IMG/VR virus record: IMGVR_UViG_3300021440_000105
Span: 1 to 26,497 of that record
DNA: 26,497 nucleotides
Strand: one strand, 5' to 3'
DNA from: a virus
The notes under the pieces are model-generated. The model did not search any database. It saw only the letters and a list, made by a program, of their open reading frames with translations, and was not told the DNA's origin. Positions 1-26,497 of the stretch are shown in pieces. The position numbers were made by a program, and so were the translations under genes. Position 1 is the stretch's first letter; each line of letters opens with the position of its first letter.

Positions 1-2522
1 TTAACCATATTTATAATTGGTTTATAATAAGCGAGCATACGCCCACTAGGTAAACGCATCATTAAAAAATCATTTAATACTTTAAATCTGATTCCATTGT
101 ATTCAGTAACGTAATTTCTTTTGACCGCTTCTCTTGCTGTCTCTTCTAGCCCATACCAAAGATTAACAATTTTTGGGTAATGGCTTCTATAGCTATCAAC
201 TATTTCTTTAGCTTGTTCTTCTGATAAAAAAACATTCCATTGAGTTTCACAAATTTCTTTGAATGTTTTTGCTCCTCCTCCATATCCACAAGAGAGAACG
301 CTTATCTTACCAAGTTGTCTTTGATCTTTTGTTACTTGATCATAAGGCACTTTATAAATACCACTAGCTACCCTTTTATATTGATCCACCCCATTTCTAA
401 AATCATCTAATGTTTTTGTATCTTTTGCTACCCAAGCTAGAACCCGATTTTCTATCGACGCAAAATCTGATACAAGTAACCTCATTCCTAAAGGAGCTTT
501 AACTACACTTCTTATTAATTCAATTCCACGATCAATAACATTGATATTTTCAGTATCATGAGATAAAAACTTTTTAATTAATTCTTCTGGATTTTTATTT
601 GTATCTCTTGGGAGATTTTGCATTTGGAAACCCGTTCCGCTATTTCCTGTAATCGAGATTAAACCATTTCTTCTTACCAAAAAAAAACCAGTGCTTGTTT
701 CAGGGCAAAAAACATTACCCCGATATTTAGTTAATTTAGAATGATTATTTGTGATTCTTGTATATTTAGAAGGCCTTATATAGACACGATAGTTAGTATT
801 CCATGAGGCCTGTCTCTCTCTTGCTATTACCCTAGCGGAATTCCCTGTTAAATGTGCTACAGTAGCACTAAAGTAAGCGTTGTTTTTAGAACAAGTAGAA
901 TACTCAAAAGATTTTTGCCCCTCGTAGGTATGCCCATCCCATTTTGGTAGTTCATCTATAAAAGCATAAAGGTCTAATTCAATAAACGAAAAAATATTAA
1001 AATCTTTATCCTCAAAATCGGACAACCACTTAGGAATGTTTTCCCAAGAAATATAAAAAACAACTTTGTTACTATATTGGGTTTCACTAAATTCAATTTC
1101 AGCTTCTTTTAACAATCGACGGCATCTCTCAATTTTTCTTTTTTTTACAAAAATAAATCTTAAATTCTTATTATTTTCATTATAGTTAAAATTACCATCT
1201 GCTTGAGTCATTACTATTACTCTAGTTTGGATTTCTTCTCCTGTTTTTTTTATTTCTCCGCTTAAAATATACTTATTTAGACCACGGCCTAGCATGTCTT
1301 TTGCTAATATTGTCATGAATTTTTCAGTGGATGTAAAAAAAGGTATAACATGTTCTTTAGTAATTATCATATCCGTAAATTTATTTTTTATATGAATTAA
1401 ATCATCATCTAACGGCCACATATTTATTTTTGTAGTCTCAAAAAAAATTTCGCCAGAATTTTTAGACCACACGGCAATAGGTTCTCGACATTCATAAACA
1501 TTAACCCATCCATTCTCGGTTAGCAACTCTGTGTCATCTGATAGGCAAAAACGGCCAGTAGATGCCTTATGGAAAATTAAATTTCCTTTTACAGTGCCAT
1601 CCTTGCAAACAGCTTCTTTAATAAAATCAAATTTTTTAATTGGGGTTCTTCCTAATTCACTTTTTATTTCCAAAAATCTTTTTACTTCAGGTAATAAATT
1701 AATCTTCTTAAGAGCAAAATTAACATCTTCTTTAGTATAATTTTTTAGAGATACCCCTTTATCATTTAACCACGCTAAAGATTTAGGACGTGAGTTAGTG
1801 GAGTCTAATTTTCCCTCCGTTAAGGTAAGAATTTCCTTAGCTAAATCCTTACTATATTTTTCTTTGGCCGTAAGAATAGCATTAGTTAATTCTATATCAA
1901 CTGGAATTCCACGTTCATTAATATCTAGTGTTAATCTAAAAAGCTCTAATTCAGATTGCTTAAGGTGACGTGTTAATGATTTATAGATCGCTATTTCCGC
2001 TCGTACGTCTTGCTTACAATACTCGTAGAATTCATTAAATTTTTCTGGATCGGATTCAATAGTTAATTGAGTAGATGGATTTTTTTTAGTCGCTTTTTTT
2101 GGCTTAGATAATTGGGTTATTAAAAGTTTACCTATTTTATCTTTTACTATATCAAGTCCTAAAGCTTTCCCACACGCCTCCAAAGAAGCTGGCAAACTTA
2201 AAGCAAGCGCATCAGTCATGGTGCATTCCACTTGATCTGAAGATACTTTAGGAAACCCATATTTTTTATGGCATACATTATTAATGATGTTGTACTCAAA
2301 AGTTACGTTCCATGATCTAATCGTTCCCATAGTCATAAAATGATCAAATACATCTTTAGGAAGAGGTTGCCCTGGGAGCCATAAACGGACTTCCTCCTCA
2401 TTAAAAGCGTAGGCCATACAAATAACATCAGTTGATGGGTGTTCGCTATAAGGGAACGTCCCATAAGATAAATCAAATTCTGAATAAGTCTCAAAATCAA
2501 TGAAAAGAATTTTTTTAGTCAT
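1..2522 (-). CDS. Family A DNA polymerase with 3'-5' exonuclease, interrupted by an intein; C-terminus off the left edge
   Basis: This is the replicative DNA polymerase. 840 codons are visible with no stop before the edge. The start ATG at 2520-2522 overlaps the end of the SSB gene by 8 bases. The proofreading exonuclease is intact by motif: FIDFET (D9, E11), N72-x2-FE76 and YCKQD (Y168, D172). Polymerase motif A is SDFASIENR (D686, E691). Motif B follows the family A spacing R735-x3-K739-x7-Y747-G. Palm motif C (usually HDE) must lie beyond base 1. Residues 326-627 are an intein inserted inside the conserved TGRF/S motif that contacts primer-template. Without the intein the visible polymerase is 538 residues. 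The position equivalent to E. coli Pol I F762 is leucine (L743). It is the last gene visible in the leftward replication operon. Confidence 0.95.
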   Translation of the reverse strand, partial: MTKKILFIDFETYSEFDLSYGTFPYSEHPSTDVICMAYAFNEEEVRLWLPGQPLPKDVFDHFMTMGTIRSWNVTFEYNIINNVCHKKYGFPKVSSDQVECTMTDALALSLPASLEACGKALGLDIVKDKIGKLLITQLSKPKKATKKNPSTQLTIESDPEKFNEFYEYCKQDVRAEIAIYKSLTRHLKQSELELFRLTLDINERGIPVDIELTNAILTAKEKYSKDLAKEILTLTEGKLDSTNSRPKSLAWLNDKGVSLKNYTKEDVNFALKKINLLPEVKRFLEIKSELGRTPIKKFDFIKEAVCKDGTVKGNLIFHKASTGRFCLSDDTELLTENGWVNVYECREPIAVWSKNSGEIFFETTKINMWPLDDDLIHIKNKFTDMIITKEHVIPFFTSTEKFMTILAKDMLGRGLNKYILSGEIKKTGEEIQTRVIVMTQADGNFNYNENNKNLRFIFVKKRKIERCRRLLKEAEIEFSETQYSNKVVFYISWENIPKWLSDFEDKDFNIFSFIELDLYAFIDELPKWDGHTYEGQKSFEYSTCSKNNAYFSATVAHLTGNSARVIARERQASWNTNYRVYIRPSKYTRITNNHSKLTKYRGNVFCPETSTGFFLVRRNGLISITGNSGTGFQMQNLPRDTNKNPEELIKKFLSHDTENINVIDRGIELIRSVVKAPLGMRLLVSDFASIENRVLAWVAKDTKTLDDFRNGVDQYKRVASGIYKVPYDQVTKDQRQLGKISVLSCGYGGGAKTFKEICETQWNVFLSEEQAKEIVDSYRSHYPKIVNLWYGLEETAREAVKRNYVTEYNGIRFKVLNDFLMMRLPSGRMLAYYKPIINMV
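642..1547 (-). other. Intein (302 residues) with LAGLIDADG-like endonuclease core inside the DNA polymerase
   Basis: The intein starts at Cys (codon 1545-1547, precursor residue 326) and ends at Asn (642-644), followed by Ser as the +1 extein residue. Block A reads CLSDDTELL...GWV. Block B has T63-x2-H66 (TKEHVIP). The C-terminal block reads STGFFLVRRNGLISITGN, so the penultimate residue is Gly and not the usual His. Between them lies an endonuclease-like region. It has one acidic motif, QADGN (D117 of the intein), followed by a basic KKRKIERCRRLL helix. A second motif is LPKWDG (D204), followed by a segment ending AHLTGNSARV. This layout fits a LAGLIDADG-type homing endonuclease, though both motifs are diverged. 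Removing the intein rejoins ...ASTGRF and SGTGFQMQNLP, a normal family A sequence. Confidence 0.93.
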
Positions 2523-5306: not shown

Positions 5307-7596
5307 TTTCGTCTATCTCGCCATTTTTATTTTCTTCGACTAATTTATAAATCATACTTTTTTTAGATGTTTTATTATTTAGCAATTCAATTTTTTTATT
5401 CGCTAAAAGATAACTTATAACTTGGGATCTGAAAATCTTATTATTTTTTTGGAAAATATTTTTTATTAGATTGTCTGATATTTTAAATAGTTGTGTTTTA
5501 CTAGAAATTAATTTTTGTATTACTTTTTCTGCTAATAAACTTATTTTGTTGCTAGTCTCATCCGAATCAAAAATAGGTTCTAAATCTTGGGATAGACTTT
5601 CCACCATATAAAAATAAAACATATCTTCGGCCCATGTGATCGCATCCATCCGCACTTCTAACGAAGGTTCTTTTCTCCCAGCTAAAGCATAAATCATAGA
5701 TAATTTTTTTGTAAACTCGGAAAAAGAATTTACTATTATTCCTTGGGTAGTATCCCCTGATTTATGCGCTTTTATTTTTAGCTCATTCGATTTTTTGGTA
5801 TGGTCATTATTTAAATAAAATTGTGCTTCAGAGGATTCTATTATATTGTGTCTAACTTTCGGCTTCAAAACAAAATCATAATAAAAATATGAATTTGTTT
5901 TTTTATTAAAACCTTTTTCAATTTTAATTTGTGATATATCAACTTTATCAAATATCTCATGACTAAAATTTATTTTTTCAGGAGAAGAAAAATCATCAAA
6001 ATTATCTTCTTTTTCAAATACCCATTTACTAACAAAATTTTGGATAAATTTTATTTCTTCCTGATTAAAAAATTCTTTATTTTCATTTGTTGTCGGTTTA
6101 TTTAAATATAAATTATCATCAACTACCATAAAGGTACGTCTACCCATCCCCGCCATAAAATCTTTTTTATAAAATTCATTTTTAAATTCTGGTGTAGTAA
6201 ACATTAGCGATGAAAACCTAGGGCCGTAACAAACGCCATAACTCTCATTTTTTAATTGTATATGTTGTAAATTATCATCGCAAAAATCAGAATAGTATTG
6301 GCAAAAAAGTTCCGATAGCTCACTAGTAGCACTGTTACTCTTATTTTTCCCCTTTAAGATCTTAGTGTATTCATCTAAAAAATAAAAATTGATAGGACTA
6401 GAAGCAAAACTTTGGGTAAACGCTGCTTTTGATTCAATGTTGCTATTTTTCCAAGATTTATTTAGTGGTGGGATAATATTTTTTAAGCTCTGTAAAAGTT
6501 GAGATGACGTTGTTTTTCCGCTTCCTGATAGGGCCACATACAAAACCATTAGATTTGACCTAGTTTTCCCATAAACAATGGAATAGGACAATAACCAGGA
6601 TACTGCGGATAAAGCCGTAAAAAATGCCATTTGGCCCGCATTAGTATGTTGGTTTCTTAAGGTCGCTCTATAAAGAATATCGAGTAGCGAACCGACCTCG
6701 ACTTTGGGGTGATCTTTTAACGGGTTATTTAAAAAATCATGATGAGGCGATTCTTTTTGGTAAAAAACAGGAAAATCTCCTTTCTCCAAAAACTTTTTAA
6801 CCGCATTAGGGAACATATCTATTATTTCTTTTTTTGCCGTAAAAAAAGATCTGCGTGAACCATCCGAGGATAGTGACTTAAATTCAGGAGTTTCTAAAAT
6901 TTCTTGGTAAATCTCATGAGGAGGAACTCCCTTAAAAATTTGGGCATAAACGCTATTTCTTAGAAAATCGTGTCTAGCCCCAGATTTTTGATAAATTGGT
7001 TCTCTAAACCCATATTCTAATTCATATAAATCTATTATTTTCAGCAAGCATTCCTCTAAGAGAATGGGCATTTCCGCTGGTGTGTTTTCCCATAAATTTC
7101 TGTTTGGCCAGATGTACGAGTTAAATGTATCTTTATATCTCCCTAATGCGTTGCATCTTTTTCCTTTGACGATTAGATCTAATTTTGGTGGTTGGGATGG
7201 GATATCGAATGAATGGTCATAATTAAACCAGAATTGGCCCAATTTGAGCGGATTACCTATCCGCCTAAATAATTCGTCCTCTCTATAAAAACTCTTTAAA
7301 ACAGCAAAAATAGAGCTATTAAGATCTTGGGATAGTGAGTCAAAATCTAAACAAATAAAATTCAGGTAAAAATCAGGAATTAACGCTAACTCAGTCGTCC
7401 CTTCAGGGAATTTATCCAAATCTTCGACGCAAGTGAGAATATGGTTTTTGTCGGTTAATAACGTCCCCTTCTGATTATCTATATTGTTAAAAAAACCTTT
7501 TTTAATAGGGCGCAAAAACCACCCATTGGAAATCGCTCGAGATATATTAGGGATCTCCGATAATAATAGACTAGTATTTTTATGGAAAATAGGCAT
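5278..7596 (-). CDS. Bifunctional primase-helicase (AEP-like N-terminal domain plus P-loop ATPase)
   Basis: The protein has 772 residues. The N-terminal third carries FICLDFDS (D84, D86), which fits the metal-binding acidic pair of archaeo-eukaryotic primases. Further on, GKRCNALGRYKDT and SYIWP (about 146-163) recall the pattern around the later motifs of prim-pol proteins. The second half holds a P-loop, ALSGSGKTT (355-363), and a Walker B FYFLDEY (404-410), as in DUF3987 or D5-type phage helicases. It is the first gene of the leftward replication operon and probably supplies both priming and unwinding, since no other replicative helicase is visible. The ATG at 7594-7596 has a GGAA ribosome site 7 bases away. 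The family assignment of the primase half is the less certain part. Confidence 0.8.
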   Translation of the reverse strand: MPIFHKNTSLLLSEIPNISRAISNGWFLRPIKKGFFNNIDNQKGTLLTDKNHILTCVEDLDKFPEGTTELALIPDFYLNFICLDFDSLSQDLNSSIFAVLKSFYREDELFRRIGNPLKLGQFWFNYDHSFDIPSQPPKLDLIVKGKRCNALGRYKDTFNSYIWPNRNLWENTPAEMPILLEECLLKIIDLYELEYGFREPIYQKSGARHDFLRNSVYAQIFKGVPPHEIYQEILETPEFKSLSSDGSRRSFFTAKKEIIDMFPNAVKKFLEKGDFPVFYQKESPHHDFLNNPLKDHPKVEVGSLLDILYRATLRNQHTNAGQMAFFTALSAVSWLLSYSIVYGKTRSNLMVLYVALSGSGKTTSSQLLQSLKNIIPPLNKSWKNSNIESKAAFTQSFASSPINFYFLDEYTKILKGKNKSNSATSELSELFCQYYSDFCDDNLQHIQLKNESYGVCYGPRFSSLMFTTPEFKNEFYKKDFMAGMGRRTFMVVDDNLYLNKPTTNENKEFFNQEEIKFIQNFVSKWVFEKEDNFDDFSSPEKINFSHEIFDKVDISQIKIEKGFNKKTNSYFYYDFVLKPKVRHNIIESSEAQFYLNNDHTKKSNELKIKAHKSGDTTQGIIVNSFSEFTKKLSMIYALAGRKEPSLEVRMDAITWAEDMFYFYMVESLSQDLEPIFDSDETSNKISLLAEKVIQKLISSKTQLFKISDNLIKNIFQKNNKIFRSQVISYLLANKKIELLNNKTSKKSMIYKLVEENKNGEIDENGDTIQAST

Positions 7597-7639
7597 AAAA
7601 AAATTCCTTTTTTGTTATTAATAGACTATATTGGTAGGG

Positions 7640-7676
7640 AAATATTTACATGAATATCCTTTTTTTGTAAATATTT
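7640..7676. repeat. 10-bp inverted repeat upstream of the primase-helicase gene
   Basis: Perfect arms AAATATTTAC (7640-7649) and GTAAATATTT (7667-7676) are separated by 17 bases. The repeat lies 44 bases upstream of the primase start, within the expected promoter region of the leftward operon. On the minus strand, TTTACA and TAAATA occur with a 17-base gap across the repeat, so it could be an operator overlying a promoter. This reading is inference. Confidence 0.45.
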
Positions 7677-7706
7677 ATTCTCTTTTTTGTATCGTGTCAT
7701 ATTGGT

Positions 7707-7743
7707 AAAGCAGAGTGTCATAAAAAACACTCTGCTTTTTTTT
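7707..7743 (+). terminator. Rho-independent terminator, rightward
   Basis: A perfect 12-bp stem (AAAGCAGAGTGT at 7707-7718, ACACTCTGCTTT at 7727-7738) with an 8-base loop runs into eight T residues on the plus strand. The minus strand has only three T after the stem, so it works best for rightward transcription. No plus-strand gene precedes it. It therefore blocks rightward transcription out of the back of the replication operon, or ends a short unseen transcript. Confidence 0.85.
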
Positions 7744-7790
7744 GTCAAAAATTCTGTAAAAATCAATTAAAAATCGGGAAAATGTTATGG

Positions 7791-7991
7791 AGTACGGTTG
7801 AGGTACTTGCGGAAAATGACTCTAAAAAAAGTAGCTTAACCGTGGAAATTAAAGGGAAATTAGGGAAAAACATGTACGGTTGAGCAATGGAGTACGATTT
7901 CTCTAAAAGAAATATTTTAAGGGGAAATTAATAAGTAATAAATAAATAATAATATAAATATGTACTATATATACTATAGAGACGGTTGAGG
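7791..7991. other. Candidate replication origin: three GGTTGAG repeats with an AT-rich tract
   Basis: The non-coding gap 7597-8154 contains three direct copies of ACGGTTGAG: GTACGGTTGAGG at 7792-7803, GTACGGTTGAG at 7874-7884, and GACGGTTGAGG at 7981-7991. A GGAGTACG half-copy lies at 7889-7896. Between the second and third copies, bases 7925-7978 contain only four G or C. Repeated binding sites beside an easily melted stretch, just upstream of the primase-helicase gene, is the layout of an iteron-type origin. There is no direct proof. The rest of the gap holds the inverted repeat, terminator and tandem repeat listed separately; I see no gene in it. Confidence 0.45.
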
Positions 7992-8068
7992 AAATGTGAT
8001 TTCAACTACTTAGCTATTAGTAAAAAGGTAATACGCCATAAATACTCTTTAATAAAAAGTACACTGAA

Positions 8069-8153
8069 AGCGTTATTTCTGAGAAATAGCGGTTCTGTCC
8101 CTTGTCCAGAAGCGTTATTTCTGAGAAATAGCGATTCTTTTTTGTCCAGAAGC
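8069..8153. repeat. Tandem repeat (42 + 40 bases) with a hairpin in each unit
   Basis: Unit 1 (8069-8110) and unit 2 (8111-8150) share AGCGTTATTTCTGAGAAATA at the start and TTGTCCAGA at the end. A third partial copy (AGCGTTA) runs into the stop codon of the lipoprotein gene at 8155-8157. Each unit holds a stem of TTATTTC/GAAATA(G) closed by TGA, with outer GCG/CGC-type pairs. On the minus strand the two hairpins would form directly after the lipoprotein stop. They could protect or end that mRNA, or act as protein-binding sites near the candidate origin. Confidence 0.75.
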
Positions 8154-8154
8154 G

Positions 8155-8598
8155 TTAATCCTTATCCCAATAAATATTACCATTAGCGTCACAGTTTAAG
8201 GTTAGGTCCACAGTTGATGCGTTATAATTGCAGGTGTGTTTTCCTTTAGATAAACACACATCTACAAGGTCTTGCGGAGGTTCTTGATCAATCATGATGG
8301 TAGCGGTTCCGTTCTTAGGGAACCCTGTTATTTTTCCTGTTTGTCCGCATTTGTAGGTTAGGTTTATATCGCAATTGCTATATATGGTTAGGATTAAGGT
8401 AGGAACTGTGGAGTTAGACACATAAACCCCACTTAAATCGTTATTAAGGCACCTTAAAGCCTTTTTTTGATTCTCAATAGCGTGTTTTAGCTTTTTTTCG
8501 GGCTTTTCAGAAGGTTTAGCGCAAGATAATAGGAGTAGGGGTAAGGGTACAAAAGCCCTAATTAGGGCGTTTTTGTGTGTTTTAAGCCATGTTCTCAT
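8155..8598 (-). CDS. Phage-encoded lipoprotein, unknown function
   Basis: This 147-residue protein starts with a basic segment (RTWLKTHK), a hydrophobic stretch (FVPLPLLLL) and a lipobox LLSC with the acylated cysteine at residue 26. It is therefore exported, lipid-modified and held at a membrane. The residue after Cys is Ala, not Asp, which in Gram-negative enteric rules favours the outer membrane. The mature part has a short charged linker (KPSEKPEKK) and about six cysteines, including NCD, KCG, VCL, TCN and NCD, that could pair as disulphides in the periplasm. I do not recognise the family. Phage lipoproteins made in the cell often block superinfection by masking receptors; that role is a guess here. 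An AAAGGA ribosome site lies 5 bases upstream. Confidence 0.8.
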   Translation of the reverse strand: MRTWLKTHKNALIRAFVPLPLLLLSCAKPSEKPEKKLKHAIENQKKALRCLNNDLSGVYVSNSTVPTLILTIYSNCDINLTYKCGQTGKITGFPKNGTATIMIDQEPPQDLVDVCLSKGKHTCNYNASTVDLTLNCDANGNIYWDKD

Positions 8599-8614
8599 AT
8601 TTGTCCTTTTATTT

Positions 8615-8815
8615 TTAATTATCCTGTAGTGTTTCTAAAAATTGTATTAATTCACTATCCGAATAATCAGATTTACGGCCGTTTTCCAATTCGTTTATCA
8701 ATTTTTTGATTATTGTGGGGTGCAGCGTTAATACGTCCTCTTGTTTTTCCTTTAAATTTTTTTCTGCTTGCTCATTTAGGTCTAATATTTCAAAAATTAC
8801 TTGTTCTCTTTTCAT
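8615..8815 (-). CDS. Small acidic phage protein, unknown
   Basis: This 66-residue protein is probably all-helical and rich in Glu and Lys (EQAEKNLKEKQED, INELENGRKSD), ending in LIQFLETLQDN. It has no transmembrane segment or recognised motif. The start is well supported: AAAGGACAAAT precedes the ATG exactly as in its two neighbours. It sits between the lipoprotein and the ribbon-helix-helix gene, with 16- and 23-base gaps, so the three form one transcript. Small acidic proteins in such early phage blocks often inhibit host enzymes, but nothing in this sequence proves that. Confidence 0.7.
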   Translation of the reverse strand: MKREQVIFEILDLNEQAEKNLKEKQEDVLTLHPTIIKKLINELENGRKSDYSDSELIQFLETLQDN

Positions 8816-8838
8816 ATTTGTCCTTTGTTTTTTTTTTA

Positions 8839-9015
8839 TTATTTTTCGTTGCTGTTTCCATCATCAATCAAGTCATCTATTACTTGATCAATAAATTTTT
8901 GGATTGAACCGAACTCTTCAATGAGTTTAGCTAAAATGGCTTCTCGTATACGAATAGTTACGACTTTCTTAATGCCATAATCCGCAATTTGTTGGTGATT
9001 GTGAGGATTTTTCAT
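8839..9015 (-). CDS. Ribbon-helix-helix (Arc/CopG-like) DNA-binding protein
   Basis: This 58-residue protein has the look of a ribbon-helix-helix repressor. A short strand VVTIRI (residues 18-23) is followed by helix A (REAILAKLIEEFG), a turn, and helix B (SIQKFIDQVIDDLID). Such proteins dimerise, pair their strands and bind short inverted or direct DNA repeats. An upstream in-frame ATG at 9060 is less likely, because AAAAGGACAAAT sits directly before the ATG at 9013-9015. It is the only clear transcription-factor-like gene in the window. It is therefore a candidate ligand for the operator-like repeats at 9291-9319, 10579-10607 and 10757-11315. That link is inference. Confidence 0.65.
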   Translation of the reverse strand: MKNPHNHQQIADYGIKKVVTIRIREAILAKLIEEFGSIQKFIDQVIDDLIDDGNSNEK

Positions 9016-9028
9016 ATTTGTCCTTTTA

Positions 9029-9256
9029 TTATTTGTTATATTTCTCAAGATTACATACATGTCTTGAGTATAAATTGATGTAGTTACTCACTAATACCTT
9101 ATCGTTAACTTTTAACTCATCCCTGTTTTCGATATCCATCGCCACGGCCATTTGTCCGTTAGCTAAATAAATGTAAGCATCATAAGGATTCATTAAACTG
9201 TTGGGATCATCTATTTTTGTAATGGTAGTGATTTCTCTAAAATTTGATTTTTTCAT
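9029..9256 (-). CDS. Small phage protein, unknown
   Basis: The protein has 75 residues. A longer reading from 9319 is excluded because it would start inside the promoter at 9291-9319. The ATG at 9254-9256 has an AAAAGGA ribosome site 8 bases upstream. The sequence looks like a compact beta-rich domain: FREITTITKI, then YDAYIYLANGQMAVAMDI, then ELKVNDKVLVSNYINLY, with a C-terminal lone Cys. The segment VNDKVLVSN recalls beta-barrel folds of the OB or SH3 kind, but no family is recognised. It is the first gene of the small leftward block and overlaps nothing; the ribbon-helix-helix gene follows 13 bases on. Confidence 0.65.
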   Translation of the reverse strand: MKKSNFREITTITKIDDPNSLMNPYDAYIYLANGQMAVAMDIENRDELKVNDKVLVSNYINLYSRHVCNLEKYNK

Positions 9257-9290
9257 AAGTTTTTTCCTTTTCTTGTTATTCGTTATATTA

Positions 9291-9319
9291 ATTGTAATAC
9301 AATATCGTGTAACATGCAA
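9291..9319 (-). promoter_or_regulatory. Sigma70-like promoter A, leftward
   Basis: On the minus strand TTGCAT (plus 9314-9319) and TACAAT (plus 9291-9296) are separated by exactly 17 bases. The -10 box lies in a perfect palindrome, ATTGTA-A-TACAAT (9291-9303). It drives the small gene block starting at 9256. The spacer contains GTTACACGATA. An almost identical promoter lies at 10579-10607. Confidence 0.75.
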
Positions 9320-9390
9320 TATTTATTTAATGCATTGTATAATTATTTTATGTTTTTGGTGTAATTTTGAGGGGTTGAGGGGTAGATAGT

Positions 9391-9407
9391 GCCTCATCCA
9401 CTGAGGC
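9391..9407. repeat. Short GC hairpin after the antirestriction gene
   Basis: GCCTCA (9391-9396) and TGAGGC (9402-9407) form a 6-bp stem with a 5-base loop, 10 bases past the stop of the gene ending at 9417. No T-run follows on either strand, so it is at most a weak or processing hairpin between two leftward units. Confidence 0.4.
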
Positions 9408-9416
9408 GATTAGTGG

Positions 9417-10307
9417 TTATTCTAGTTCTTCCGCCCCATAACTTCCTAAAATATAATCCGCAGATTTTTGGGCTTTACTAGCTGCTTCAAAAAAGAATTT
9501 TTTGTCATTTTTAAGTACTTTAAGCCATGATTTAACGTAAGCTGCGGAATTCTCAAGTTGAGGAGATAAACCACAAATATTTAACAAGAAGGATGCGGAT
9601 ATTTCGGCAATTAACTCTTCTTTAGAGTAGCGGTGACTGCCAAAAGCTGCATTTTTTTCTAATCCTCTATTAAGTCGCGAAGTGTGCCCAGTGGAGTGGG
9701 ATAATTCGTGGAATAACGTATTGTAATAACCAGAATCCCCATTAAATTCGGATTTTTCTGGTATCACTACTAAGTCCCGCGATGGAGAGTAATAAGCTGC
9801 ATGTCCCCTAAATTCTATTTTAGGACTATTTTTGTATTGGGCAATTATGTTTTCGGCCATTTCATTTTTGTTGATGGGCGTTTTATCTAGTAGCGATAAT
9901 TCTAAATTGTAATCAATCACGTTTTTTGTTAATTCAATGTTTTCGCATTGTTCTAAATTAAAAACGTTAAAATGTTTTAACATTGGTATTGTCTCTTCCT
10001 CACCTGTTTTTTTATTGAGGATTTTTAACAGTTTCCAATAGACCACTAATTCTGATTTTTCGCCCCGTTTTACGTTACCGCCCAATTCTCTTATTTGGGC
10101 GTAAGTAGCCCAGAAAGGGGAGTTAAAGGAGGTGTTATTAAGCAAAAAATTATTGATGCCACGATATTGTTTATTAGATATCAAATTTCGTGGAGCCGAA
10201 TTTGATGTCCGCCAAGGTTTTTGCCATGGAATAATATCGTTCTCTAATTGGCTCAAAATTTTGTCAGTAACACGCTGATAAATGTCGATCTTTTCGAATT
10301 TTTTCAT
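9417..10307 (-). CDS. ArdC-like antirestriction protein (N-terminal ssDNA-binding domain, zincin-like C-terminal domain)
   Basis: This 296-residue protein matches the ArdC family, a two-domain protein of plasmids and phages that helps incoming DNA survive host restriction. The N-terminal part (residues 1-130) has the typical DIYQRVTDKILSQLE start, IPWQKPW (26-32), YRGIN (48-52) and the WATYAQIRELGGNVKRGEK stretch. The C-terminal metallopeptidase-like domain carries HELSH (200-204), then TGH, and a glutamate-rich helix EELIAE (230-235) that would supply the third zinc ligand. A SYGAEELE tail ends the protein. AAGGA precedes the start at 10305-10307. It is transcribed with two tiny upstream ORFs from promoter B and is probably expressed early after entry. 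Confidence 0.9.
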   Translation of the reverse strand: MKKFEKIDIYQRVTDKILSQLENDIIPWQKPWRTSNSAPRNLISNKQYRGINNFLLNNTSFNSPFWATYAQIRELGGNVKRGEKSELVVYWKLLKILNKKTGEEETIPMLKHFNVFNLEQCENIELTKNVIDYNLELSLLDKTPINKNEMAENIIAQYKNSPKIEFRGHAAYYSPSRDLVVIPEKSEFNGDSGYYNTLFHELSHSTGHTSRLNRGLEKNAAFGSHRYSKEELIAEISASFLLNICGLSPQLENSAAYVKSWLKVLKNDKKFFFEAASKAQKSADYILGSYGAEELE

Positions 10308-14161: not shown

Positions 14162-15886
14162 ATGTTTGAAAGAAAAGATTTAGAAGTTCTCCGCGCTCAA
14201 CTTGAAAATGAAAGATCTTCTTTTATTTCTCATTGGCGGGATTTAGTTGATCATCAACTACCGCGAAGAGGAAGGTTTTCTATCACCGATACAAATAAAG
14301 GTGATAAGAAAAATACTAAAATCATTGATTCCACCGCTACTCTTGCTTTACGTAATCTTAGATCAGGCATGATGAGTGGGATTACCTCTCCTGCTAGACC
14401 TTGGTTTAAACTAGCGACACCAGACCCGTCATTAAATGAATTTCAGCCAGTGAAAGATTGGCTTACTTTTGTAGCGGATCGAATGAATACTGTATTTTTA
14501 AGGTCAAACTTGTATAATGTACTTCCTATCGTCTACGGTGATATTGGCTCGGTAGGTACCGCTTGCATCCTTATGGAAGAGGATAGTGAGCACACTATCA
14601 GATTTTATCCTTTTCCCATCGGTACTTATTCTTTGGCCCAAGATCATACTCTTAGAACCAATACTTTTTTCCGTGAATTTAGAATGACGGTATGCCAATT
14701 GGTGGAACAGTTTGCAGAGTATTCTCCTAGTGGAGAAATTATTTGGGATAATTTTTCGACCTATGTAAAAGACATGTATCAAAATGGAAATAAACAAGTA
14801 TGGATTGATCTTTACCATTTTATTTTCCCTAATAAATACTTTGATCAAAATAAATTTTCAGCTAAATATAAAAAATATAGTTCTATTTATTGTGAGAGAG
14901 GTACTTATTCAGGAGCGTTTAACTCGTTATCTGATATTTACCAAAATCGTTTTCTCCGAGTTTCGGGATATGATTTTTTCCCAATCCTTTCCCCACGCTG
15001 GGAAGTAGCGTCTGAAGATGTTTATGGGACTGATTGCCCGGGGATGACGGCGTTAGGTGATATTAAACAACTTCAATTAGGGGAAAAACGTGCGGCCCAA
15101 GCAGTGGAGAAAATGATTAACCCACCGATGACAGGTCCGACGTCAATGAAAAATTCTAAAGCGTCAATTCTCCCAGGTGATATTACTTATGTGGATACTA
15201 AAGGGAATGATTCTTTTAGAGCGTCTCATGAAGTGAGATTTGATTTAACCCCACTTGAAAATAAACAAGCCCAAATAAGAGATAGAATTCGTCGTTGTTA
15301 TTTTGAGGATTTATTTTTAATGATGGCCAATTCTGATAGAAGACAAATTACCGCAAGAGAAATAGAAGAGCGGCATGAAGAAAAACTTCTTGCTCTAGGA
15401 CCTGTGTTAGAACAGCTTAATCAAGATTTACTCAATCCACTTATAGATAACACTTTTCAAATTATGGTGAATCAGGGGCAAATCCCAACTCCTCCAGAGG
15501 AACTTCAAGGAATGAATCTTAAGGTTGAATATATTTCCATTATGGCCCAAGCACAAAAATTAGTGGGTATTGGTGCGCTAGAAAGAACAGTAGGGTTTGT
15601 GTCTCAAATGGCGCAACTTAATCCTGAAGCCTTAGATAAAATTGATATAGACCAAACAATAGATATTTATTCGGATTTAACGTCAGTTCCACCAGGAGTT
15701 ATTAGATCTGATGAAGTAGTAGCGTCTCTTAGAGCAGACCGAGCTAAACAACAACAAATGCAGCAAGAACAACAACAAATGCAGCAACAAGCAGTGGCCG
15801 CTAAACAATTATCAGAAACTAATCTTGAAGGGAAAAATGCTTTATCTGAAATAGTGAAGCGTAGTGAAATAGGGGAACTCGTATGA
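14162..15886 (+). CDS. Portal protein (head-to-tail connector, T7 gp8/P22-like)
   Basis: This 574-residue protein matches the podoviral head-to-tail connecting protein family. It forms the twelve-subunit ring through which DNA enters and leaves. The opening region shows LPRRGRF and then ATLALRNLRSGMMSGITSPARPWFKL, a strongly conserved stretch of these portals. GDIGSVGTACILMEED follows, as does WEVASEDVYGTDCPGMTALGDIKQLQ. The C-terminal barrel region ends in a Gln-rich helix (KQQQMQQEQQQMQQQ). TTAGGACAATAACA precedes the start, inside the last codons of the gene before. The stop overlaps the next ATG (ATGA). Confidence 0.95.
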   Translation: MFERKDLEVLRAQLENERSSFISHWRDLVDHQLPRRGRFSITDTNKGDKKNTKIIDSTATLALRNLRSGMMSGITSPARPWFKLATPDPSLNEFQPVKDWLTFVADRMNTVFLRSNLYNVLPIVYGDIGSVGTACILMEEDSEHTIRFYPFPIGTYSLAQDHTLRTNTFFREFRMTVCQLVEQFAEYSPSGEIIWDNFSTYVKDMYQNGNKQVWIDLYHFIFPNKYFDQNKFSAKYKKYSSIYCERGTYSGAFNSLSDIYQNRFLRVSGYDFFPILSPRWEVASEDVYGTDCPGMTALGDIKQLQLGEKRAAQAVEKMINPPMTGPTSMKNSKASILPGDITYVDTKGNDSFRASHEVRFDLTPLENKQAQIRDRIRRCYFEDLFLMMANSDRRQITAREIEERHEEKLLALGPVLEQLNQDLLNPLIDNTFQIMVNQGQIPTPPEELQGMNLKVEYISIMAQAQKLVGIGALERTVGFVSQMAQLNPEALDKIDIDQTIDIYSDLTSVPPGVIRSDEVVASLRADRAKQQQMQQEQQQMQQQAVAAKQLSETNLEGKNALSEIVKRSEIGELV

Positions 15887-22468: not shown

Positions 22469-24163
22469 ATGCCTATAGTACCTAAATATGAAAGACAAAT
22501 ACGAAGTACAGGGCTTAATCTCCCTCAAAATAATTTTAATGCCCCTGATCTATCAGCTAATTTTAATAATGTATTTGATCAAGCTAAAGGGGCGGTTAAA
22601 GCAATTCATTCAGTTCAATTAGAAGAAAAAGCAAAAGCGGATAAGCTTTCTTTAATGAAAGCGCAAAATGATTATGATTCTTTTTTAGGGGAATACCTCC
22701 ATAATAAAGATACAGGTGCACTTACAAAAAAAGGTGAAAGTGCTTTTAATTTAGACGATGATTTTGAAGTACAACATAAAGCTAAGATAGAAGAGATAAA
22801 TAAAACATTAAATAATGATGAACAAAAACAATCTTTTAATTTTTACGCTTCTGATAAAAAAATTAGCTCAAAAAATTTAATCTATGGGCATATAGAAAAA
22901 GAAAAGAATGATTTTTCTAATACTCAAGCTACGGCCAGAGTAAATCTTCTCCAAGAACAAGCCTCCCAAAATCCATATTCTCCTAAAGCAATTGCGGATA
23001 GTCTTAAAGAACAAAACAAAGCGATTATTAATTTAGGTCAATTAAATGGTTTACCTCAAGAAAAAGTCGATCAATTAATTTTAGAGGCGAATTCAAAGAC
23101 TCATCGAGGAGTGCTTAATACTTACCTTAATAAAGGTGAGGATGTAATTGCTCAACAATATTTTAATCATGTTAGTAAAGATATGACCTCTTCTGATAGG
23201 GAAATGGTTCAAAAATCTTTAGAAGTAACTTCCACTTTAGGGCAATCCCAAAGACTCACTGAAAATATTATGGGTGCTAATTTAAGTCAGAGTGAATCTT
23301 TAAAAAAAGCAAGATTAATTCAAGATCCTAAAATTCAAGATATGGTGGTTCAACGAATTAAAACTAGATTTGATGAGGATCATGAAGCTAAAGTTTACGC
23401 ACAAAATGATGCTTTTACCGAACTTTATAATAATGTTGTTCATGATAAATTAGATATTAGTAATTTAGATAAAGAGAAATTAACTTCATTACCACCTTCC
23501 ATGCAAGCGACGATTCTTTCTATGAAAGATGGACAAAAAGAAAGTGATTTAACTAAATACCAAGATTGGCAATTTATGGCCAACGATTCTAGCCAGCATA
23601 AAGAATTTATGCGAATAGATGCGAGTGAGTTTGTTAAACATCTCACTCCTACTGATGCTAAACACATGATCCAATTACAAGCGGATATTAGAAAAGGAAA
23701 ATTTGATTCCCTTGAAGGGCAAGGGTATCTTTCCCAAAAAGCGTTGGTAGATCAAAATTTAAGAGAACTAAAAATAAAAGATAAAGTTGAGCAAGCATCT
23801 TTTCATAAATACATAAATCAAAAAGTAGAAGAATGGTCTACTACTAATAATAAAAAACCATCAAAAATGCCGAGGGAAGAATTACAAAAAATTATAGATG
23901 AGGGTTTAATTGAAGGTGAAGTGAAGAGTGGGTATCTATTAAAAATTGATCCGAATAAAAGGGCCTATCAAGTTAAAACAGAAGAACTTCCTAATTTTGT
24001 TCCTGATAATGAAGAGGATGCGGCTAAATTAAAAAATTATAAAGAAACTGTTCTTCTTGAACAAAAAGTTAAACAAAAATTAAAAGATGCTGGTCGTCCG
24101 CATTCACCTCAAGATGTAGAGTTAGTCATAAAAAATATTAAAAAAATAGCTGGTAAACAATAA
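22469..24163 (+). CDS. Internal virion/ejection protein (T7 gp15 / P22 gp20-position)
   Basis: This 564-residue, highly charged and almost wholly helical protein starts with MPIVPKYERQIRSTGLNLPQ. The MP-VP-YerQv start is shared by many podoviral ejection proteins. Gln/Lys/Glu-rich repeats with regularly spaced hydrophobic residues suggest coiled coils throughout; no cysteine or membrane segment is seen. Position second in the ejection gene trio and size agree with the gp15-type tube component. The last base of the stop is the first base of the next ATG (TAATG). Confidence 0.75.
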   Translation: MPIVPKYERQIRSTGLNLPQNNFNAPDLSANFNNVFDQAKGAVKAIHSVQLEEKAKADKLSLMKAQNDYDSFLGEYLHNKDTGALTKKGESAFNLDDDFEVQHKAKIEEINKTLNNDEQKQSFNFYASDKKISSKNLIYGHIEKEKNDFSNTQATARVNLLQEQASQNPYSPKAIADSLKEQNKAIINLGQLNGLPQEKVDQLILEANSKTHRGVLNTYLNKGEDVIAQQYFNHVSKDMTSSDREMVQKSLEVTSTLGQSQRLTENIMGANLSQSESLKKARLIQDPKIQDMVVQRIKTRFDEDHEAKVYAQNDAFTELYNNVVHDKLDISNLDKEKLTSLPPSMQATILSMKDGQKESDLTKYQDWQFMANDSSQHKEFMRIDASEFVKHLTPTDAKHMIQLQADIRKGKFDSLEGQGYLSQKALVDQNLRELKIKDKVEQASFHKYINQKVEEWSTTNNKKPSKMPREELQKIIDEGLIEGEVKSGYLLKIDPNKRAYQVKTEELPNFVPDNEEDAAKLKNYKETVLLEQKVKQKLKDAGRPHSPQDVELVIKNIKKIAGKQ

Positions 24164-26497
24164 TGAATGAATACGATTCACTTATAGACCAATACATAAA
24201 ATCTACCCCACCTAAAATTGATCCAGTGGATTCTTCCATTAATGAAGTTAAAGATATTCAAGAAACACAATTTAAGATTAATGAAAAACAAGTTTCTAAA
24301 GAACACCCAGATGATTATGCAAAATATGTAAAAGTAGCGGAGGAACAAAATATCCCAGTCGCTATGGTTCAACGTAATTGGGATAGATTTAAACCTAAAG
24401 AATATGAAATTGATTATGAAGATTTATCTAATAACTCCCCTAAGACGAGAGATTTTTTAAACGATCCAACTAATCTCTCCTTATTTAAAGATGAGATTAA
24501 TTCATTAAAAGAATCTGAATATATTTCTAAACAAATCCCTTCTAAAGATAAAGGATTTATTAATGATACTATTTTAGCCGGCCAACAAGGGTTTGTTTCT
24601 TTAGGTTCCTCAACTCTTGTGCTTGCTTTAGCTCATGGTATTGGTGATGAAGAATTTGTTTCTAAAGCTTTAGCTGATTCGGTTAAAACCCAAAGATCTT
24701 TAGATTTAATTACCCCTACTCATGTACAAAATTTCCAAGAATTAATGAGTAAAGAACGCCAAGATTTAAATTTAGCAAAAGATAAATTTTTAGTTGGGTA
24801 TGATGAGTTAAAAGATGGAAGAATTTTAGATGGGTTAGAAAAAGCGGCTAAAGGTGGTTTTGAAACTGTCTATGAAGCTTTAGATTTTGCTAAAGAGTTT
24901 ATTTCTAATCCTAGAAGTGCCTCTTACACAATTGCGCAAAATATTCCTAATGCTATTCCTTCTATAGGTGGTTCTATCGCTGGCGTCCCCTTAGGGCCAA
25001 TAGGAATTTATGCGGGAAGTTTTACGGGAGGGGTTTCTACTGAAGTTGGTTCTTCTATTTTGGAAGATCTTGAAAAACAAGGGGTGGATACTTCTAATCA
25101 GGATGCCATAAAAAAAGCGTTTAGAGATCCTAAAATAATTGATGAAATTAAAACTCGTGCTTATAAAAAAGGGATCACTACTTCGGCCATTGATTCTTTA
25201 TTTACGGTATTTGCTGGAAAACTACTTAAAGGTGCCGCTGGTAAATCACTTAAAGCTAAAGCTATAGCGGGATTAAAAGAATTAGGGGTTCAATCCACTG
25301 GCGAATCTTTATCCGAATTTGGTGGGCAATTAGCAAGAGAAGGAAGTTTATCTAAAGTTGATCTAGGTGAATCTCTTCAAGAGGGTTTAACTTCTTTAGG
25401 TCAATCCGTAGCGGATACTTCTGTAGGAGCGGTTAGAAGAAAAGCCACTTCTCTTAGAGATCTTTCCAATGAAACTAAAACATTTATTAATTCATTTAAA
25501 GATTCCCAAGGAATCCAAGCGATAAAAGATTTATCTAATAAAATAAGAGATTCAAAATCATTTAATCGTTCACCTAAAAAAATAGAACAATTAGTGGGTA
25601 ATCTTACACAAGGTGAATCTATTTATTTCCAAGCAAGTGATTGGGAAAAATTATTTAAAGAGGGTATTTCTCCATTAGAAAAAGCGGATGAATTATTACC
25701 AGAAGGACGAAAACAATATTTAGAAGCTAAAGAAAGTGGGAATCCGATAGAAGTAAAACAATCCCATTACATAACCAAAATAGCTCAAAGTGAAATTCAG
25801 GATTCATTAGAAGGTTCTATTAAGTTAACCCCTAATGGGTTATCTAAAAATGAGATTCAAGAATTTACTAATAATTTTGAAAACACTATTCAGCAATTAG
25901 CAAAACCCGCTCAAGAAGAATTAATTACTAAAAAACAGATTAATGATTCTTTTGAAGCGGTAAAAGAAGATGTTGCGCTCCAATTAATGGAAGCAGGTCA
26001 TTCTAAACAGACCGCTCAAATTTATGCCGAAGCTATGACCCCGTTAAGAGTTTTAGCTGAAAGAGCCAATATTGACCCTTATGCTCTTTATGAAAAATAT
26101 AATATTAGAATCCAAAAACAAAAATCAGGGGATGCTTCTAATTTTGATTCTACTCAAAAAAATAATGAAAAATTTTATTATGATGAAGAATTAAAAAACA
26201 TGTTGGATGAAGTACGAAAAGATCCAAAATCCAATTTAGTAAAAGAATTAGGGTTTAAAAATAAAACTTCATTTGTTAAAGCGGCTACTGACCCTAAACA
26301 TAAAGATCATAAAATAATTAAAAATGCTATTAACCAAAGATTACAAAATATAGAGCATTTTCAAAAAGACAAAAATACTCCACAAGGAAGTTTAAAAATT
26401 TCTCCTAAAAGAGAAATGACTATTTCACTTTTTGAGAATGCAGATAAATCAACTTTTCTCCATGAGACAGGGCATTTATTTCTTGAGATTTTAGGAG
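24163..26497 (+). CDS. Large ejection protein with zincin-like motif; 3' end beyond window
   Basis: The frame is open from ATG 24163 to the right edge (778 codons), overlapping the previous stop by one base. The N-terminal 230 residues are charged. A Gly/Pro/Ala-rich segment (ASYTIAQNIPNAIPSIGG-SIAGVPLGPIGIYAGSFTGG, about 252-290) could enter a membrane. A VDTSNQDAIKKAF region and long helices follow. At residues 767-771 stands HETGH within STFLHETGHLFLEIL, the zinc-binding HExxH signature of a metallopeptidase-like domain common in very large phage internal proteins. It is the third ejection protein (T7 gp16 position). A catalytic role in crossing the envelope or cleaving host proteins is possible. 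Confidence 0.82.
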   Translation, partial: MNEYDSLIDQYIKSTPPKIDPVDSSINEVKDIQETQFKINEKQVSKEHPDDYAKYVKVAEEQNIPVAMVQRNWDRFKPKEYEIDYEDLSNNSPKTRDFLNDPTNLSLFKDEINSLKESEYISKQIPSKDKGFINDTILAGQQGFVSLGSSTLVLALAHGIGDEEFVSKALADSVKTQRSLDLITPTHVQNFQELMSKERQDLNLAKDKFLVGYDELKDGRILDGLEKAAKGGFETVYEALDFAKEFISNPRSASYTIAQNIPNAIPSIGGSIAGVPLGPIGIYAGSFTGGVSTEVGSSILEDLEKQGVDTSNQDAIKKAFRDPKIIDEIKTRAYKKGITTSAIDSLFTVFAGKLLKGAAGKSLKAKAIAGLKELGVQSTGESLSEFGGQLAREGSLSKVDLGESLQEGLTSLGQSVADTSVGAVRRKATSLRDLSNETKTFINSFKDSQGIQAIKDLSNKIRDSKSFNRSPKKIEQLVGNLTQGESIYFQASDWEKLFKEGISPLEKADELLPEGRKQYLEAKESGNPIEVKQSHYITKIAQSEIQDSLEGSIKLTPNGLSKNEIQEFTNNFENTIQQLAKPAQEELITKKQINDSFEAVKEDVALQLMEAGHSKQTAQIYAEAMTPLRVLAERANIDPYALYEKYNIRIQKQKSGDASNFDSTQKNNEKFYYDEELKNMLDEVRKDPKSNLVKELGFKNKTSFVKAATDPKHKDHKIIKNAINQRLQNIEHFQKDKNTPQGSLKISPKREMTISLFENADKSTFLHETGHLFLEILG

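Follow-up and report, generated by a model that had tools for sequence, protein, structure and literature searches.

Inteins in phage family A DNA polymerases are already known, as in Lactococcus phage KSY1 (NC_009817, annotated 'intein-containing DNA polymerase I'), and phage inteins with a penultimate glycine are both known and tested. The mycobacteriophage Bethlehem gp51 RDF intein (Kelley et al. 2016, PMC5050341) is a class 1 phage intein with Cys1, a penultimate glycine and an endonuclease domain. It was shown to splice, and to completion, whereas its G316H variant takes more than 5 h for about half (PMC5050341). The AceL NrdHF split intein (PDB 6ZGQ; PMC7891396) lacks the histidines of both block F and block G and ends in T144-G145-N146; its G145H variant is inactive and its R69A variant is slow. 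The distance from R69 (position B:11) to the scissile carbonyl is 2.5 Å, and the authors left unexplained what polarises the asparagine side chain (PMC7891396).

The DNA analysed here (the window) is the whole of IMG/VR record IMGVR_UViG_3300021440_000105, 26,497 nucleotides long. Its minus-strand ORF 2522-3, an open frame of 840 aa cut off by the end of the record, encodes a phage family A DNA polymerase (phrog_17 DNA polymerase, E = 9.6e-77), in which the TGR motif and the DNA_pol_A motifs A and B are all present. Within this ORF we identified a 302-aa intein (Cys1 to Asn302, positions 642-1547 of the minus strand, on which all features of this gene lie), delimited by translation, full-length tblastn matches, a structural model and fold comparison. 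The N-extein (positions 1548-2522; phrog_17, E = 5e-35) aligns with intein-free polymerases; it comprises the 3'-5' exonuclease part and the beginning of the polymerase domain, and its last residues are TGRF. The C-extein (positions 3-641; Pfam DNA_pol_A, E = 5.7e-21), delimited by translation and alignment, carries the polymerase domain with motif A (VSDFASIENR) and motif B (RQLGKISVLSCGYGG), motif C lying beyond the end of the record. Both ends of the record fall inside ORFs, the polymerase at window 1-3 and a large ORF with an LPD22 domain at window 24163-26497; the record is therefore a fragment. We read the insert, with a probability of about 0.9, as a full-length class 1-type intein belonging to a phage family with a Gly-Asn end, predicted to be capable of splicing and homing. 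It adds a well-delimited phage polymerase intein to the known set.

The translated intein begins CLSDDTELLTENGW and ends LVRRNGLISITGN, followed by Ser, and the insertion point lies exactly between TGRF and SGTGFQMQNLPR. In-silico removal of positions 642-1547 yields KASTGRF-SGTGFQMQNLPRD, colinear with the intein-free polymerases L034 (KATTGRY-AGSGFQIHNLPRD) and L027 (TGRW-SGTGVQLQNLPRDT); the two extein halves thus rejoin to a standard polymerase motif, as the initial annotation had claimed when it placed an intein in the TGR motif of a phage family A polymerase. An alignment to five intein-free phage polymerases places the insert exactly between TGR[F/W/Y] and the next [S/A]G..xQxxN. The closest polymerase found (L034, IMGVR_UViG_3300024520_000216; identities of 54% and 58% over the two exteins) has no insert. 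Among the best 80 viral-contig matches to the C-extein, TGRx directly precedes the match in 73 and the sequence is continuous on inspection in 6 more; in the last one (L112) the match begins past the site, and its 669-aa ORF has the length of an intein-free polymerase. An insert at the TGR site was found in none of the best viral polymerase matches, and L034 and the other top matches provide the intein-free alleles that the initial annotation had proposed to seek in related phages. The insert is in frame, and the conserved host protein is continuous in relatives across TGR[WFY]-[SA]G. A chance resemblance to an intein is discounted because full-length tblastn matches (residues 1-302) exist and its residues are found again in 112 distinct relatives. 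We considered a foreign base composition of the intein and rejected it, its GC content being 0.311 versus 0.328 and 0.326 in the exteins; this similarity gives no sign of a recent arrival.

The AlphaFold model of the intein, built with 63 sequences, has a pLDDT of 96.3 and scores above Z = 14 against many intein structures, as expected of a Hint fold. Structural comparison (VIA-align) gave end-to-end matches to the intein-endonucleases TliVMA (Z = 22.8, 290 residues) and PI-PfuI (Z = 22.1, 293 residues). Among entries consisting of a splicing domain only, AceL NrdHF (6ZGQ) comes first (Z = 20.1, 1.7 Å over 141 residues), followed by hedgehog (16.5) and Pab CDC21-1 (16.4); the sequence profile of the family likewise finds AceL NrdHF as its best match (E = 2.7e-14). 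No clear intein match for the window copy came from searches with its sequence alone (Pfam, NCBIfam, PDB by sequence). The initial annotation had named a lack of Hint-domain similarity in a profile search as grounds for refutation. Taken literally that test would misfire, since single-sequence Pfam finds no Hint domain whereas family profiles and fold comparison do.

Searched alone against phages by tblastn, the intein gives full-length matches with E-values down to 2e-26. At E up to 0.01 it matches 211 phage records, and in 195 of these the match covers at least 80% of the query. The host proteins of the full-length matches include ribonucleotide reductase (RNR) alpha and beta, a RecD-like protein, a nicotinamide phosphoribosyltransferase, a terminase, primase/helicases and DNA polymerases, among others. 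The best full-length matches among named phages are the inteins of Silviavirus RNR alpha and of Pectobacterium phage phiTE/PcCB7V RNR beta, which share the Gly-Asn end at 28-29% identity but reside in another host protein. The Bethlehem RDF intein, compared by its published description, differs in both host protein and site; no RDF-located relative of the mycobacteriophage primase intein was among the matches listed. Relatives were recovered by DNA patterns across the junction and by a profile from a four-row alignment. Single-protein searches for related loci found none with P0002 or P0004, and only L002 with P0003. One pattern match (L033) was rejected as chance, its frame not being a polymerase.

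In total 112 distinct relatives were collected from phages, a plasmid, viral contigs and genomes, and 63 sequences were aligned. All 20 loci that were read show a Gly-Asn end of the insert followed by Cys, Ser or Thr. The end is Gly-Asn in 106 and Gly-Gln in 3 of the 112 relatives, and the +1 residue is Ser, Cys or Thr in 111; the members L132, L145 and L176 have the Gly-Gln end. Within the alignment, Cys1 of block A (positions 1545-1547), the predicted first-step nucleophile, is invariant (63/63). The block B motif TKEH (positions 1350-1361) supplies Thr63 (B:7; Thr or Ser in 63/63) and His66 (B:10; 63/63). Cys281 at block F position 4 (F:4; positions 705-707) is conserved in 61/63, and Arg292, ten before the terminal asparagine (positions 672-674), is Arg in 58 and Lys in 4. 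The block G end Thr300-Gly301-Asn302 (positions 642-650) has Gly in 62/63 and Asn in 60/63, with Gln in the remaining 3; Thr at G:5 is found in 37. The translation then gives Ser+1 (positions 639-641), the predicted second nucleophile. The window intein thus belongs to a phage Gly-Asn family, defined by the present alignment, with Cys1, the B:10 histidine, the F:4 cysteine, an arginine at -10 and a Gly-Asn end, and without a block F histidine.

Cys1, the terminal asparagine, Ser+1 and the block A and B motifs listed in the initial annotation are all found in the translation. That annotation also pointed to the penultimate glycine and the TSTGFF segment without the block F histidine, from which it concluded that asparagine cyclisation must be helped differently. 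Both features are present, but they are not unusual: given the Gly-Asn end in 106 of 112 relatives and the residues conserved in the 63 aligned sequences, the missing histidines are a shared family trait, and splicing with a penultimate glycine has demonstrated precedents in Bethlehem RDF (PMC5050341) and AceL NrdHF (PMC7891396). In a large and predominantly phage intein family that has an F:4 cysteine and a conserved arginine, a Gly-Asn end with no catalytic histidine is the usual state, and asparagine cyclisation in such inteins, of which AceL NrdHF is a case (PMC7891396), becomes approachable by comparison across the family.

The class 1 route is the best reading of the splicing reaction because Cys1, T63xxH66, Asn302 and Ser+1 are all in place. 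After translation, Cys1 would attack the Phe-Cys bond (N-S shift), Ser+1 would then take over the N-extein to form a branched ester, Asn302 would cyclise without either of the usual histidines and release the intein, and TGRF would be joined to SGTG in a working polymerase. Class 2 (KlbA type, Ala at position 1) was rejected, the window intein having Cys1. So was class 3 (no nucleophile at position 1, WCT at B:12, F:4 and G:5), given Cys1 and the triplet Ile68-Cys281-Thr300. We also weighed a route that would be chiefly class 3-like, with Cys281 hitting the N-terminal junction first and Cys1 dispensable. It draws on the near-universal F:4 cysteine and the frequent G:5 threonine of the family, and on AceL NrdHF, whose splicing domain is the closest one solved. 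That intein belongs to class 3, though without the Trp of WCT, has a Thr-Gly-Asn end (PMC7891396), and shares with the window intein the lack of both histidines, the F:4 cysteine and Ser+1. It differs from the window intein in having Ala1, in being naturally split without an endonuclease domain, in residing in a ribonucleotide reductase and in carrying Arg at B:11. However, class 3 is defined by the absence of the very Cys1 that is invariant here, block B is of the class 1 type TxxH, and cysteine is the second commonest residue at F:4 among inteins generally (PMC4031507), so that we regard such a route as unlikely.

The one peculiarity of the window copy, as read from its sequence, is Val67 at B:11 (positions 1347-1349). 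Among the 63 aligned sequences this position is Arg in 27 and Lys in 20, and each of the 13 same-site relatives compared has Lys or Arg there. With Val67 in place of a basic residue, splicing may be slower; we would predict slower C-terminal cleavage or another helper, the candidates for assisting Asn302 being Thr300, His66, Cys281 and the conserved Arg292. It is conceivable, if rather doubtful, that the lineage without both histidines, with the window copy also lacking a basic B:11 residue, uses an undescribed way of polarising the asparagine (for instance Arg292 with the F:4 cysteine), and that Cys1 together with the F:4 cysteine may permit either a class 1 or a class 3 first step, as in a living intermediate between the classes. 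The departure from the Lys/Arg of the same-site relatives could also be taken as a mark of decay, with inefficient splicing or a dead endonuclease and a poorly made polymerase. We consider this very improbable, as the frame stays open for 840 codons, neither the splicing residues nor the two endonuclease aspartates have been lost, and the fold is confidently modelled.

The endonuclease core noted initially is also recovered. A LAGLIDADG homing endonuclease domain spans about residues 105-243 (positions 819-1235), as judged from the model helices 105-117 and 193-202 and from the fold comparison, in which this part matches I-DmoI and PI-SceI. The two helices terminate in the predicted catalytic acids of a two-motif LAGLIDADG enzyme, at the residues given by the initial annotation: Asp117 of motif 1 (QADG, positions 1197-1199; Asp in 55 and Glu in 8 of 63) and Asp204 of motif 2 (KWDG, positions 936-938; Asp in 63/63). 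Pfam LAGLIDADG_3 scores under the cut-off for the window intein and is detected in 15 of the 63 aligned members. The domain would cleave the TGR site in co-infecting phages that lack the intein, and the intein would then be copied in during repair.

Using DNA patterns across the junction and the family profile, we found inteins at the same residue in at least 12 other polymerases (L114-L119, L195, L196, L198-L200, L214); L122 has a further one at TGRW^C in a very divergent polymerase. Carriers are viral contigs (L114-L119, IMG/VR) and bacterial genomes from several phyla, among them Sutterella wadsworthensis 2_1_59BFAA (L194), Parablautia muri (L197) and Lachnospiraceae, Synergistales and Spirochaetales MAGs. 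These inteins resemble that of the window in host protein, in the TGR[W/F]^C...GN^S junction, in length (301-308 aa) and in their LAGLIDADG motifs (M.QADG, ELxxWDG). They differ in showing only 30-36% identity, in having Lys or Arg at B:11, and in polymerases that are not close kin. A limited search of the open-access literature, which is no proof of absence, returned no published description of a TGR-site intein group.

The 13 same-site rows, counting the window and leaving out L122, fall on one side of a branch of the intein tree (1 change versus 12.1 in shuffles), this group having moderate support only (SH-aLRT 79-82). The extein tree requires 11 changes for its 14 intein-bearing rows, close to the 12.4 obtained with shuffled labels, with 103 of 500 shuffles as low, and on it the window polymerase is sister to the intein-free L034 with support of 100. 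One intein lineage at one residue in scattered polymerases is the pattern that site-specific homing leaves; a single conserved loop of phage family A polymerases emerges as a site of repeated homing, both among phages and in bacterial genomes from several phyla. The initial suggestion that mobility may still be active is upheld for the lineage, by the same-site inteins and the conflict between trees, but not for the window copy itself, which keeps both aspartates and may, by prediction, still cut. The same distribution bears on whether the phage retains a splicing intein as a timing or stress switch activating its polymerase rather than as a mere mobile element. Insertion in a conserved polymerase motif would make activity dependent on splicing, and the penultimate residue sets the splicing rate in a mycobacteriophage intein (PMC5050341). 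Yet the sporadic occurrence, absent from the top viral polymerase matches and dispersed over the polymerase tree in the manner of a selfish element, makes a retained switch quite unlikely, and we keep to a homing intein.

The alignment to phage polymerase inteins proposed in the initial annotation, besides giving same-site relatives with the same junction, places the KSY1 intein in the same family at another site, motif B (..KA^..^CNFSLLYG), with Cys at +1. Members of the window intein's family are also found at three or more other sites in phage family A polymerases: past TGR and ahead of QN..P (L132, L176 and L190, whose inteins cluster on the intein tree with support of 98), in motif A at VADY^C (L175), and in motif B before NF.LIYG (L004, L145, L202). 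In another contig (L031, IMGVR_UViG_3300035337_000113, positions 6337-9676) the polymerase gene is fractured at the same TGR residue. Its N-part runs into TGRW^CLAEDTQVL... and includes blocks A and B, a separate GIY-YIG endonuclease ORF follows (7737-8636; Pfam E = 2.5e-05), and the C-part reads ...ERTYDIINAGPKNRFFVKGGIVSN^SGRGPQPQNMPR before the remainder of the polymerase. A natural split intein of a different type appears to occupy this site, in an arrangement as reported for AceL NrdHF.

Two protein families, phrog_32482 (PhoH-like) and phrog_12229 (ribonucleotide reductase), match the window intein alone. The names 'PhoH-like phosphate starvation-inducible' on helicase or primase genes (for example in L009, L015 and the Vibrio phage 1202-1268 set) probably stem from intein-containing profiles. 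'PhoH-like' and 'ribonucleotide reductase' should be read with caution in annotation, as they can be transferred from the intein and not from the host protein.

Elsewhere in the window, a head-tail connector (14162-15886) has 48.6% identity to an epsilon15-type Salmonella phage connector, and no match to it was found in the record of L034, the closest polymerase; replication and particle modules therefore travel separately. Near the replication genes, positions 9417-10307 encode an ArdC-like protein (ArdcN and zincin-like metallopeptidase domains), a possible anti-restriction factor.
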